Shown in pieces: positions 22,573 through 41,319 of a stretch of 64,000 bases of DNA. The position numbers and the translations under genes were made by a program. Source of the stretch: Candidatus Poribacteria bacterium (lineage in GTDB: Bacteria; Poribacteria; WGA-4E; PCPOR2b). A model generated the notes under the pieces. That model saw nothing but the letters and a program-made list of their open reading frames with translations, was not told the origin of the DNA and searched no databases. Position 1 is the first letter of the stretch; every line of letters begins with the position of its first letter. The stretch spans positions 124,001-188,000 of the forward strand of contig JAJECO010000062.1 of the NCBI GenBank assembly GCA_022822005.1. The letters run 5' to 3'.

Positions 22573-23322
22573 TCAAGGCTTCTCCATCGTGAAGCGGAAG
22601 TGACTTCTGAGGAAATAGGACAGCAGCTTATTGCCTAACAGGACTCTCCCCGGAGAGCGGAGTGTGTTGAAAGCGGTCCATCTGATACTCGGATTAGTGA
22701 ATCCAACTTGGCTTAGCAGATCCGTCCAGACTTCTGGCGCCTGATGTTTATGCCACTCTATCGTGGGAGCGAAGGGATTCCTAACTCTGAGTAAGGCGAA
22801 GACATTATATCTGGAGCAATCGCAAACGATTAGCTTTGTCCCGCCATTTGCGAGTGAACTGAGTTTTGAGAATATATTCAGATAAATCGCCCTGGACGCT
22901 TTATTGTTGGGCAGGTTGATGCACGCAATTTCATCTAAGTGGTTTATTGAGTTGTGGAGTAAGATAACGTCGAATTGCTTCCCTCCGGGATCAAAGGCTT
23001 GAAATGTAACGGGTTCAAACTTCACCTGATCCTGCCTGAGAATCTCACCTAACTTCCCAAACTTTTCTCTCGTCCCAGAGCGACTGCCCTCCGTTTCCGG
23101 TTCGAGACATACAACCTCCTTAGCCCCCATACACGCCACATAGAAGCTGTGTAAGCCGCTCCCTCCGCCGATATCCAACACTCGTCTGTTCTCAAGAGCG
23201 ATGTCCTTGAACAAAGTTTTCAGGTGGAATTGAAGATTACCTCTATTTGGATATAATCCTTCTTTGATGACAGCAGTGAAGTAATTTTCAAGGGTTGGCT
23301 CGGTTGGTATTTCAATTTTCAT
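22573..23322 (-). CDS. Class I SAM-dependent methyltransferase
   Basis: This 249-residue protein has the cofactor motif VLDIGGGSGLHSFYVA, followed by an acidic end of strand 2 (VVCLEPE) and FDVILLHNSINHL at the motif IV position. The C-terminal part is hydrophobic and aromatic. The acceptor is unknown. Its ATG overlaps the stop of the AhpD-like selenoprotein gene in TAATG, so the two are translationally coupled and the methyltransferase is likely made only when the selenoprotein frame is read to its true end. It converges on the cupin gene, 22 bases away. Confidence 0.82.
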   Translation of the reverse strand: MKIEIPTEPTLENYFTAVIKEGLYPNRGNLQFHLKTLFKDIALENRRVLDIGGGSGLHSFYVACMGAKEVVCLEPETEGSRSGTREKFGKLGEILRQDQVKFEPVTFQAFDPGGKQFDVILLHNSINHLDEIACINLPNNKASRAIYLNIFSKLSSLANGGTKLIVCDCSRYNVFALLRVRNPFAPTIEWHKHQAPEVWTDLLSQVGFTNPSIRWTAFNTLRSPGRVLLGNKLLSYFLRSHFRFTMEKP

Positions 23323-23900
23323 TAGTCTCCAACCGCAGGTTGTGATGGCAGATCTGTCGCGTCAAGAAAGTCCTCCAACTCAACCCCAAGTGCATCGGCA
23401 ATCCGGTTGATGGAATTGAAGAACCCGACAATCTCAACAACATCGAAGATTGCTTCGTCATCCAAGCCGTGTGATCTGAGCAAATCCAAATCTGATGGTT
23501 GAACCGTGTACGTGGCAAGGGTGACTTTCTCTGCAAATTCCAAGATTGCTCTCGTAGCTGCGTCCAAATCCGCGGATCGGAAATCGGTTTTGATTTGACG
23601 CACCAATTGATCCTCACTGACCTGTTCCCGCAGGTCTTCGCCGTGCGCTTGCACTCAGTATCGGCAGCCATTAATTTGCGAAACCACTGTCGCTATCATC
23701 TCCCGTTGCGCTCGACTCAATTTGGAGGGACCAAGCATGATAATCTCATACTGATTGACGAACGCTTTGAGGCTTTCCGGCTTGATACTGAACAACTTGA
23801 CGATATTGTAAACTCGGCCGGCACGCTCAATTCCTGCATCATATTCTTCCTTGACGATGCCTGTTGCCTCTGACTCGGGGACTGTTCGGATCCATGCCAT
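23322..23900 (-). CDS. AhpD-like peroxidase-related selenoprotein (CxxU), read through in-frame TGA
   Basis: Read as one frame from ATG 23900 to TAA 23322, this encodes 192 residues with a single internal TGA at 23657-23655. The two flanking pieces join perfectly as an AhpD/carboxymuconolactone-decarboxylase protein of the peroxidase-related type (WIRTVPESEATG..., SRAQREMIATVVSQINGCRY, then U, VQAHGED...). The TGA falls at residue 82, exactly where the second cysteine of the redox motif CxxC sits, giving Cys79-Arg-Tyr-Sec82, with the conserved His86 after it. AhpD-like CxxU selenoproteins are known from marine metagenomes. A perfect hairpin follows 18 bases downstream. The likely role is peroxide or hydroperoxide reduction. 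The alternative is a pseudogene with a nonsense mutation, but the position and hairpin argue against it. Confidence 0.88.
23619..23636 (-). promoter_or_regulatory. Bacterial SECIS-like hairpin of the AhpD selenoprotein
   Basis: On the mRNA, GACCTG and CAGGTC form a perfect 6-bp stem with loop CGGGAA. The apical loop begins 24 bases after the UGA, and the second loop base is G. Known bacterial SECIS elements have a loop 16-37 bases after the UGA, with a G in the first two loop positions. A smaller hairpin GUGC-AAGC-GCAC directly follows the UGA. Confidence 0.75.
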
Positions 23901-24048
23901 TTTCTGTTACCTTGAGGTTGAAGTTGACATCTAAAAAGTTATAGTGCTATAATGGCACACCTTCGGATATCTATTAAGGCAAAACCGGAGAGCACACAGG
24001 GTCATTCATTTAGTCCCTATGGAATTTGAAACGTCAGAATCAATCTTC

Positions 24049-39633: not shown

Positions 39634-40704
39634 ATGACGAACAGATCTCAACCGCTGCGTATCGGCGTTGTTGGCTGCGGTGGCTTTGGACGTGGCGCTT
39701 ATGTGAACAATGTCCCTGAAAACCGTGATGCCAGTTTGGTCGCACTCTGCGACATCGATTTGGGACAGGCGGAAGCGGCGGCACGTGAAGTCTTTGATAA
39801 AGGAGGCAGAGAACCGCGTCCAGCGCTTTACGCAGACTATAAAGCGATGATTGACCAAGAATCCCTCGATGTGGTCATGGTCGGGACGATGGCAGATGTC
39901 CGTCCGCGTGTAGCGATCTATGCGTTGAATGCCGGCGCCCACGTCCTCGCTGCCAAGCCGATGGCACCGTCCTTAGCAGAAGCAGAGAAGATGCTCCAAA
40001 CAGCGAAGGAAGTGGACAGGATTTTGATGGTCGGCTATAACTTCCGATTCCGGGATGATGCACAGATCGTGCACCGTTTTATCCGCGATGGCGGTATCGG
40101 GACACCTCGCTTTGCCCGCGCTTGGTCGTTTGCGCCCAGCGTACCGATCCGCGGACCCCACTACAAAGCGGGGTCGGGTGGCGGCTCACTCGCCAGAACA
40201 GGGGTTCACACGATGGATCTGGCGATCTGGTTCCTCGGCAGCCCGCCCCTCATCTCTGTGCATGGACGGGCGCTTTCACGTTTTGCCGACCTTCCCGCGC
40301 TGCCCCCCGAATTGGAATCCCTTCGCGGCGACTACGACGATCCAGATCTGGTCAGTGGTTATGTCCAGTTCGCCGATGGGGTCACGCTGTCCGTCGAGAG
40401 TATGTGGATGGCACCGCCGCAGATTGGCGATCATGGTGTCGAGGTGTGGGGGACGCACGGTTACGCCTCGGTGACACCGTTACGATTGCTGACTTGGCAG
40501 GATGGAGATTATGTTGACGTGACCGAGCAGGTAGCACCGGGTATTGCGGATTCCTTCCATGATGACTGGCACACACGGATACGACGCGAGGTCTTTCACT
40601 TTATCGATTGCGCTCTTGGCAGATCGACACCGCTTGTAACGCCGGAAGAGATGTGGACGGATCAGGCGATTGTGGAGGGGATCTACGCCAGCGTGAACGC
40701 CTAG
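39634..40704 (+). CDS. Gfo/Idh/MocA family oxidoreductase 1
   Basis: This 356-residue protein has the Rossmann motif RIGVVGCGGFGRGAYV at the N-terminus and the family site AKP (HVLAAKPMAP) where most relatives have EKP, then GVHTMDLAIWFLG with the catalytic-type His. These enzymes oxidise or reduce sugars, inositols or their acids with NAD(P). The Glu-to-Ala change in EKP is unusual but tolerated in some branches. The start follows AAGAAGGAAAG. The gene's end overlaps the end of the selenoprotein gene on the opposite strand by four bases. Confidence 0.85.
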   Translation: MTNRSQPLRIGVVGCGGFGRGAYVNNVPENRDASLVALCDIDLGQAEAAAREVFDKGGREPRPALYADYKAMIDQESLDVVMVGTMADVRPRVAIYALNAGAHVLAAKPMAPSLAEAEKMLQTAKEVDRILMVGYNFRFRDDAQIVHRFIRDGGIGTPRFARAWSFAPSVPIRGPHYKAGSGGGSLARTGVHTMDLAIWFLGSPPLISVHGRALSRFADLPALPPELESLRGDYDDPDLVSGYVQFADGVTLSVESMWMAPPQIGDHGVEVWGTHGYASVTPLRLLTWQDGDYVDVTEQVAPGIADSFHDDWHTRIRREVFHFIDCALGRSTPLVTPEEMWTDQAIVEGIYASVNA

Positions 40705-41261
40705 AGAAACGCCTTCTCCCTCGCTTCCGCCGAGACATCCCACGCACGATCATATTCATAATCGTCCCGACGCGCCAACAGTGCTCGCAAATCGTGCCGC
40801 AGCTCCTCTACTGTGGGTCTTCCGACATACCACCAACCGTTGTAAATCTTGTAAATTTTGCGATCGCCGTCGAGGACAAAAGTATAGGGTATAGGGATCG
40901 GCGAATGGACGGGATCTGTGTTGTCTACGATGTCGAGCTCATTGATTAACGCCCGGTCAAGGTCAACCAAGAAGGGCCATGTCGCACCGATACGCTCGCG
41001 CAGTGCCCTCGTTGTTTCCTGATCATCAACTGAGACCGCGATTAGCCTACAGTAGTTGACCTCCAATTCGGGTTGCAGGTCTTTTGCGTAATTCTCCAAC
41101 TGGAGAACATCCTTCGGTCAGTATGCTCCCCGCCAAAAGACGAGGATCGTGGGCCATCCACGCATCAAATCCTCCAGCGTTCTGATTATGCCGTCTTGGT
41201 CGGGACGTTCAAAGTTTGGGATTTTGTTACCGGATATCATCAAATCTTCGCGGATTTTCAT
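40701..41261 (-). CDS. Peroxiredoxin-like selenoprotein, read through in-frame TGA
   Basis: Read as one frame from ATG 41261 (GGAGG five bases upstream) to the stop at 40701, this encodes 186 residues with one internal TGA at 41120-41118. The two flanking ORFs join as an AhpC/TSA (redoxin) protein: MKIREDLMISGNKIPNFERP, then TILVFWRGAY, Sec48, PKDVLQLENY, later IPYTFVLDGDRKIYKIYNGWW. Sec sits where peroxiredoxins have the peroxidatic cysteine (RGxYCP), here with Asp three residues on instead of a second Cys. A perfect 6-bp hairpin follows. Prx-like selenoproteins are known from marine metagenomes. The expected activity is reduction of peroxides with thioredoxin or glutaredoxin. A nonsense pseudogene is the alternative. 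Confidence 0.9.
41092..41107 (-). promoter_or_regulatory. Bacterial SECIS-like hairpin of the peroxiredoxin-like selenoprotein
   Basis: UUCUCC and GGAGAA form a perfect 6-bp stem with loop AGUU; a further G-U pair extends it. The loop starts 16 bases after the UGA and has G then U in positions 2-3, as in many bacterial SECIS loops. The distance is at the lower edge of the known 16-37 range. Confidence 0.75.
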
Positions 41262-41319
41262 CTTACCCTCCAGTTTCATGAGACCACATGAAACCTTATC
41301 AGGATTCAAGGATCAACAA

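Follow-up and report, generated by a model that had tools for sequence, protein, structure and literature searches.

On the minus strand of the window, a stretch of 64,000 nt (G000:C51:124001-188000) from a Poribacteria-type genome of 6.0 Mb that is 97.8% complete, a gene for an AhpD-like protein runs from an ATG at 23900 to a TAA at 23324-23322 and contains a single internal TGA, at 23657-23655 (Table 1). ORF calling by standard rules splits this gene into pieces of 81 and 110 aa. In the motif GCRYUVQAH (C79-R-Y-U82), the TGA takes the place of the second Cys of CxxC and is followed by His86; the first-pass annotation had described a frame open except for one TGA at exactly this Cys, with the His kept, and both the coordinates and the translation agree with that description. 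A profile search with the 192-aa protein also gives a match to PF02627 (the CMD/AhpD core) of 49 bits, with a cut-off of 23. By every computational test run, this is a true CxxU AhpD-like selenoprotein gene.

Table 1. Features of the window discussed in the text
Feature	Position	Strand	Remarks
AhpD-like selenoprotein gene	23322..23900	-	192 aa, Sec = residue 82; TIGR01926 156.6 bits (cut-off 81.8)
In-frame UGA read as Sec, second position of CxxU	23655..23657	-	from the frame and conservation in relatives
Predicted SECIS hairpin, 6-bp stem, 6-nt loop CGGGAA	23619..23636	-	loop 24 nt past UGA; -7.8 kcal/mol alone
AAGG, Shine-Dalgarno-like	23910..23913	-	9 nt 5' of selenoprotein ATG; sequence, presumed role
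SAM methyltransferase-like ORF	22573..23322	-	249 aa; start shares one base with selenoprotein stop (TAATG); ends at TGA
GGAG, Shine-Dalgarno-like	23327..23330	-	4 nt 5' of methyltransferase ATG; sequence, presumed role
AhpC/TSA-type gene with in-frame UGA	40701..41312	-	TGA 41120-41118; PF00578 69.6 bits

The AhpC/TSA-type gene carries its in-frame UGA in the motif WRGAYUPKD, which is followed by a 7-bp hairpin with the loop AGTT. It has eight matches in 8 of 58 genomes, and one TGA is kept in all of them (one also has a TAG). It looks like a selenoprotein gene of the peroxiredoxin-like type and lies at a distance of about 17 kb from the AhpD-like gene.

Neighboring genes and selenium supply

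The AhpD-like gene had been annotated as coupled by TAATG to a methyltransferase gene, and the overlap of stop and start is confirmed, with one base shared at 23322. Because the downstream ORF yields weak matches, all of them below the Pfam and NCBIfam cut-offs, we label it only as SAM methyltransferase-like. It lies 3' of the selenoprotein gene in 4 of 81 loci (the window, L068, L069, and L070), all belonging to the window's clade, and a comparable stop-start overlap is seen in a fifth relative (L017); the other four intact copies in the window's genus have overlaps of the TAATG, TAGTG, or TTGA type. The methyltransferase overlap is real and is seen only in this genus.

Other Poribacteria have a different arrangement. 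Neighboring ORFs were called mechanically, and of the 28 Poribacteria rows that lie outside the window's clade (L073 to L099 and L144), all but L075 have an SDR gene that begins at or near the selenoprotein stop. In these 27 rows, the gene of a repeat protein (about 409 aa, conserved) ends 1 to 4 bases before the selenoprotein ATG. This repeat protein (L074 4768-5997 and 26 other loci) has ERHMH/ERHLH motifs and a mean column identity of 85% (14 aligned); searches of Pfam and PDB returned no match of note, and the window's own genome has no match to it. The window does have an SDR gene on the opposite strand, which is 40% identical to the other Poribacteria SDR and may reflect general SDR likeness only. 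Genome G004 harbors a second AhpD-like Sec gene (C8:7717-8268) of the other Poribacteria type, preceded by a repeat protein that is 95% identical to the L074 copy; this second gene would be explained by either transfer or contamination.

A decayed copy exists in genome G001 (OY282444.1, one contig of 5.16 Mb), where the selenoprotein gene (L072 6001-6501) has a TAG at codon 93. In addition, about 186 bp are deleted from codon 163 into the methyltransferase gene (11-bp overlap at the joint), so that the end of the selenoprotein gene and the start of the methyltransferase gene are missing. The TAG change keeps the hairpin pairing (CTA...TAG; A-U for G-C), possibly by chance.

The first-pass annotation had suggested that Sec insertion could also set the expression of the partner gene. 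In such a selenium-gated pair, the UGA would act as a stop under selenium shortage and uncouple downstream translation, so that the Sec supply would determine the partner level. The one-base TAATG overlap in the window, the overlaps in the other four intact copies of the genus, and the SDR genes that begin at or near the stop in 27 of 28 Poribacteria rows elsewhere are compatible with it, as is the single G001 deletion that hit both genes. However, overlaps are frequent in compact operons, the methyltransferase ORF has a GGAG of its own 4 nt 5' of its ATG, and the partner is a methyltransferase or an SDR depending on the lineage, so that the operon has no constant partner gene. Since conservation of this partner ends with the window's clade, we keep selenium gating as a rival proposal and consider it rather unlikely. 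The overlapping partner genes make the idea directly testable by a reporter.

Protein family, fold, and likely function

A fold model of the whole 192-aa chain, computed with Cys at position 82, has a pLDDT of 91.9 and a pTM of 0.88. Its best PDB matches (2pfx, 3c1l, 6k40, and 2prr; TM 0.81 to 0.87) extend over the larger part of the chain and take in the half encoded after the UGA. An alignment of 36 sequences shows no variation at E67, C79, Y81, residue 82, or H86. A relay of Glu36, Cys48, Tyr50, Cys51, and His55 is described for PA0269, and the five relay residues are also described for Mycobacterium tuberculosis AhpD (PMC3141380); by sequence, E67/C79/Y81/U82/H86 correspond to the PA0269 positions. 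With the relay residues matched in this way, a Sec/Cys peroxide or disulfide reductase is the likeliest role of the protein.

Brominated metabolites are common in sponges, and the debrominase Bmp8 is among the fold matches (6ohi and 6ohj; TM 0.76, 18 to 19% identity). The enzyme could then be a reductive dehalogenase or other special reductase in which Sec attacks a halogenated metabolite, as Bmp8 does with Cys. We consider this quite improbable: the peroxidase-related proteins are closer in both fold and sequence, Bmp8 is more distant, and the same Sec family, to judge by record titles, also occurs in groundwater and other settings.

Conservation of the UGA codon and its hairpin

An AhpD-like gene match was found in 37 of 58 genomes (own genome included). 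The first-pass annotation had proposed a homolog alignment around residue 82, and this alignment has TGA at the corresponding codon in all 29 intact copies, a set that includes the window but not the decayed L019. The codon is likewise TGA in 80 of 80 relatives, which are the best 80 of 169 confirmed and come from named genomes of many phyla (Poribacteria, Acidobacteria, Phycisphaerae, other Planctomycetes, Marinimicrobia, Latescibacterota, Chloroflexi, Methylomirabilota, Rokuibacteriota, Cloacimonadota, Deltaproteobacteria, Binatia, and others). A search of 297 genomes from the phylum of G072 (Acidobacteria by record title) gave matches at an E value of 1e-25 or better in 55 genomes; among the 63 matches listed, 59 contain one or more internal TGAs and 4 are free of them. 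All 30 fetched Acidobacteria loci, in which the TGA position was checked, show the pattern C..U...H/D. Stop-free matches do exist and are distant in the searched genomes (31 to 38% identity).

Comparison of the window with five near relatives gave dN/dS values of 0.156, 0.140, 0.091, 0.131, and 0.105 after the TGA and, for the same five, 0.128, 0.090, 0.158, 0.124, and 0.066 before it. Pooled pN/pS is slightly higher after the TGA than before, both in the window's group (0.194 versus 0.143; L019 left out) and in the remaining copies (0.223 versus 0.146). Judged from the pairwise ratios, strong purifying selection acts on the codons 3' of the TGA. Two observations had been named beforehand as speaking against a selenoprotein, namely, relaxed selection past the TGA and a TGC or TGT at 23655-23657. 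Neither is seen: dN/dS stays at 0.09 to 0.16, and every checked relative has TGA.

The perfect 6-bp hairpin noted in the first pass is present at 23636-23619 (GACCTG-CGGGAA-CAGGTC), with 18 bases between the UGA and its 5' arm. The bacterial SECIS (bSECIS) rule, as set out in a 2026 review (PMC13188914), calls for a loop of 3 to 9 nt with a G in the first two positions, a stem of 4 to 16 bp, a distance of 16 to 37 nt from the UGA, and an energy of -7.5 kcal/mol or lower. The window hairpin (loop CGGGAA, 6 bp, 24 nt, -7.8) lies within this rule. Rfam at gathering scores has no match anywhere in the window and hence no curated SECIS model there. Because about 16% of random synonymous recodings of the window also give the full stem, its single hairpin is weak evidence. 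The relatives are more informative, since conservation and covariation of the hairpin across them are, at the sequence level, strong evidence for a SECIS element. Among Poribacteria, 33 of 34 sequences have the full 6-bp stem in this register, compared with a mean of 13% under synonymous recoding. In alignment A3 (49 of the 81 sequences, chosen as register-A-like, whereas the full-stem counts used all 81), both sides vary in five of the six stem pairs, and 99.3% of the cells are paired. The A3 covariation is 0.618, a value reached in 0 of 500 shuffles, and slid versions give at most 0.133. When the bSECIS rule is applied with the energy limit of -7.5, 40 of 81 hairpins pass, including that of the window, while 0 to 7 of 81 pass in six control stretches of the same genes; most Poribacteria hairpins are weaker than this limit. 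Without the energy limit, the loop of the best hairpin starts 24 to 25 nt past the UGA in 57 of 81 sequences, 16 to 18 nt past it in 20, and elsewhere in 4. The SECIS prediction asked for by the first-pass annotation is thus borne out in loop and spacing, with a stem that covaries in relatives.

Residue 93, which is Gln or Glu, and the silent base of codon 90, which is G or C, are linked (L-G-Q in 33 and L-C-E in 29 of 81 rows). The Gln rows are apparently Poribacteria alone, and a single event may underlie the link; we do not count it as proof of RNA-level selection separate from the A3 covariation.

The hairpin occurs in two registers. Register A, as in the window, is a 6-bp hairpin whose six-base loop lies 24 nt past the UGA, and it is found in most members. 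Register B is a full 7-bp stem with a 3-nt loop 17 nt past the UGA, on overlapping codons; it is present in 13 of 47 non-Poribacteria and 0 of 34 Poribacteria sequences and is expected in 0.7% under synonymous recoding. A quick tree, for which the hairpin columns were masked, gives about six changes of register. This number is rough: many branches are weak, near-fits are lumped with full fits, some Latescibacterota rows labeled A-like fold better in the other register, and 13 of the 30 fetched Acidobacteria loci are absent owing to a motif filter. Whether the SECIS element moved within one Sec family, its register switching several times while the Sec codon and the protein stayed unchanged, is in our estimate an evenly balanced question; if it did, SECIS elements can be re-sited without loss of the selenoprotein. 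A narrow literature search did not find the wording "register" for SECIS elements, and we make no claim that such switching is unreported. Two registers in one family would offer a natural series for what SelB really needs.

The genome that contains the window also carries the genes of the Sec machinery: on contig C78, selA (602 bits) and selB (369 bits) adjoin each other and tRNA-Sec (76.2 bits), and selD (370 bits; G000:C66:75130-76050) contains one in-frame TGA and is probably a selenoprotein gene itself. Over the 58 genomes (own included), tRNA-Sec passes the cut-off in 54 and selB in 56. Outside Poribacteria, the TGA gene comes from 47 genomes; selA is above the cut-off in 39 of them and has no passing match in the other 8, whose completeness is not given.

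If the TGA were an ordinary stop, the gene would be truncated, a pseudogene, or the victim of a sequencing error, and its rear half would decay or restart at a GTG. The two pieces (81 and 110 aa) given by standard ORF calls and the truly decayed G001 copy are what one would expect under that explanation. However, the same TGA recurs in every locus of two sets drawn from independent assemblies (80 of 80 and 30 of 30), dN/dS is low after it, and the hairpin covaries; because the TGA is conserved, we regard this explanation, to which we assign a very slight probability, as refuted for the window. Genome-wide reassignment of UGA to Trp or another residue, for which nothing beyond the open frame speaks, is rejected as practically negligible, since a TGA ends the adjoining methyltransferase ORF, selA, selB, tRNA-Sec, and selD are in the genome, the position is Cys in solved relatives and is followed by a SECIS-like hairpin, and a window scan (at least 60 open codons on each side, not mostly covered by another long ORF) found only two in-frame TGA places, both in redox motifs.

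Proposed mechanism and relation to known selenoproteins

Our analysis supports, with a probability of about 0.95, a peroxidase-related AhpD-fold selenoprotein with a SelB- and hairpin-directed Sec82 and a C79-xx-U82 pair, likely a peroxide or disulfide reductase. Computation shows the reading frame, the family and fold, selection on both sides of the UGA, covariation in the hairpin, and the genes of the Sec machinery. The first-pass view of a true selenoprotein is upheld by the TIGR01926 family score, the conserved UGA, purifying selection, the covarying bacterial SECIS, and the Sec machinery. Actual Sec insertion, the catalytic role, the substrate, and the reductant we infer as follows. SelB and Sec-tRNA(Sec), recruited by the hairpin past the UGA, would insert Sec at residue 82. 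C79 and U82 would act as a redox pair, and Glu67 and His86 would take positions equivalent to those in the proton relay of AhpD. The likeliest work of the enzyme would be hydroperoxide or disulfide reduction, with Sec82 as the fast redox residue; Cys79 would partner Sec82 via an Se-S bond, and a cellular thiol system would carry out the re-reduction.

The selenoprotein type is not new; it is of the known AhpD-like CxxU kind, as the first-pass annotation had stated. The earliest report of an AhpD-like CxxU selenoprotein is from the Sargasso Sea (2005; PMC1088965); the protein appears as "AhpD-like 1" in the GOS survey (PMC2398784) and is given as "AhpD-like protein, TIGR01926, CxxU" in Table 1 of the 2026 review (PMC13188914); it is filed under TIGR01926/COG2128 (PMC13188914, PMC1088965, PMC2398784, PMC9312934). 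The name Poribacteria does not occur in that review (PMC13188914). For a sponge-type candidate phylum, the window documents likely use of Sec, and it does so in a gene broken in two by standard ORF calls. The Sec form is apparently the rule in this AhpD branch over many phyla, and assumptions of Cys-based chemistry may mislead there.

Canonical AhpD (TIGR00777, M. tuberculosis) has the two-helix catalytic core and the Glu-Cys-Cys-His relay in common with the window protein, which scores 28.8 bits against a TIGR00777 cut-off of 191.95 and belongs to another subfamily. NF041238 (AhpD_rel_CFYUT) is likewise AhpD-related with a CxxU motif; the similarity is weak, and the score of 74.9 bits lies below the cut-off of 175, which places the window protein outside this family. 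Cys-containing peroxidase-related proteins of solved structure (2pfx, 3c1l, 2prr, 2oyo, and 6k40) share the whole-chain fold and the active-site motif, with CxxC in the alignments of 2pfx and 3c1l where the window protein has CxxU. The known TIGR01926 CxxU selenoprotein differs from the window gene in that the latter has a Poribacteria-type host and lineage-specific gene neighbors, whereas the two have in common a family score above the cut-off, the CxxU motif, and a bacterial SECIS directly past the UGA.
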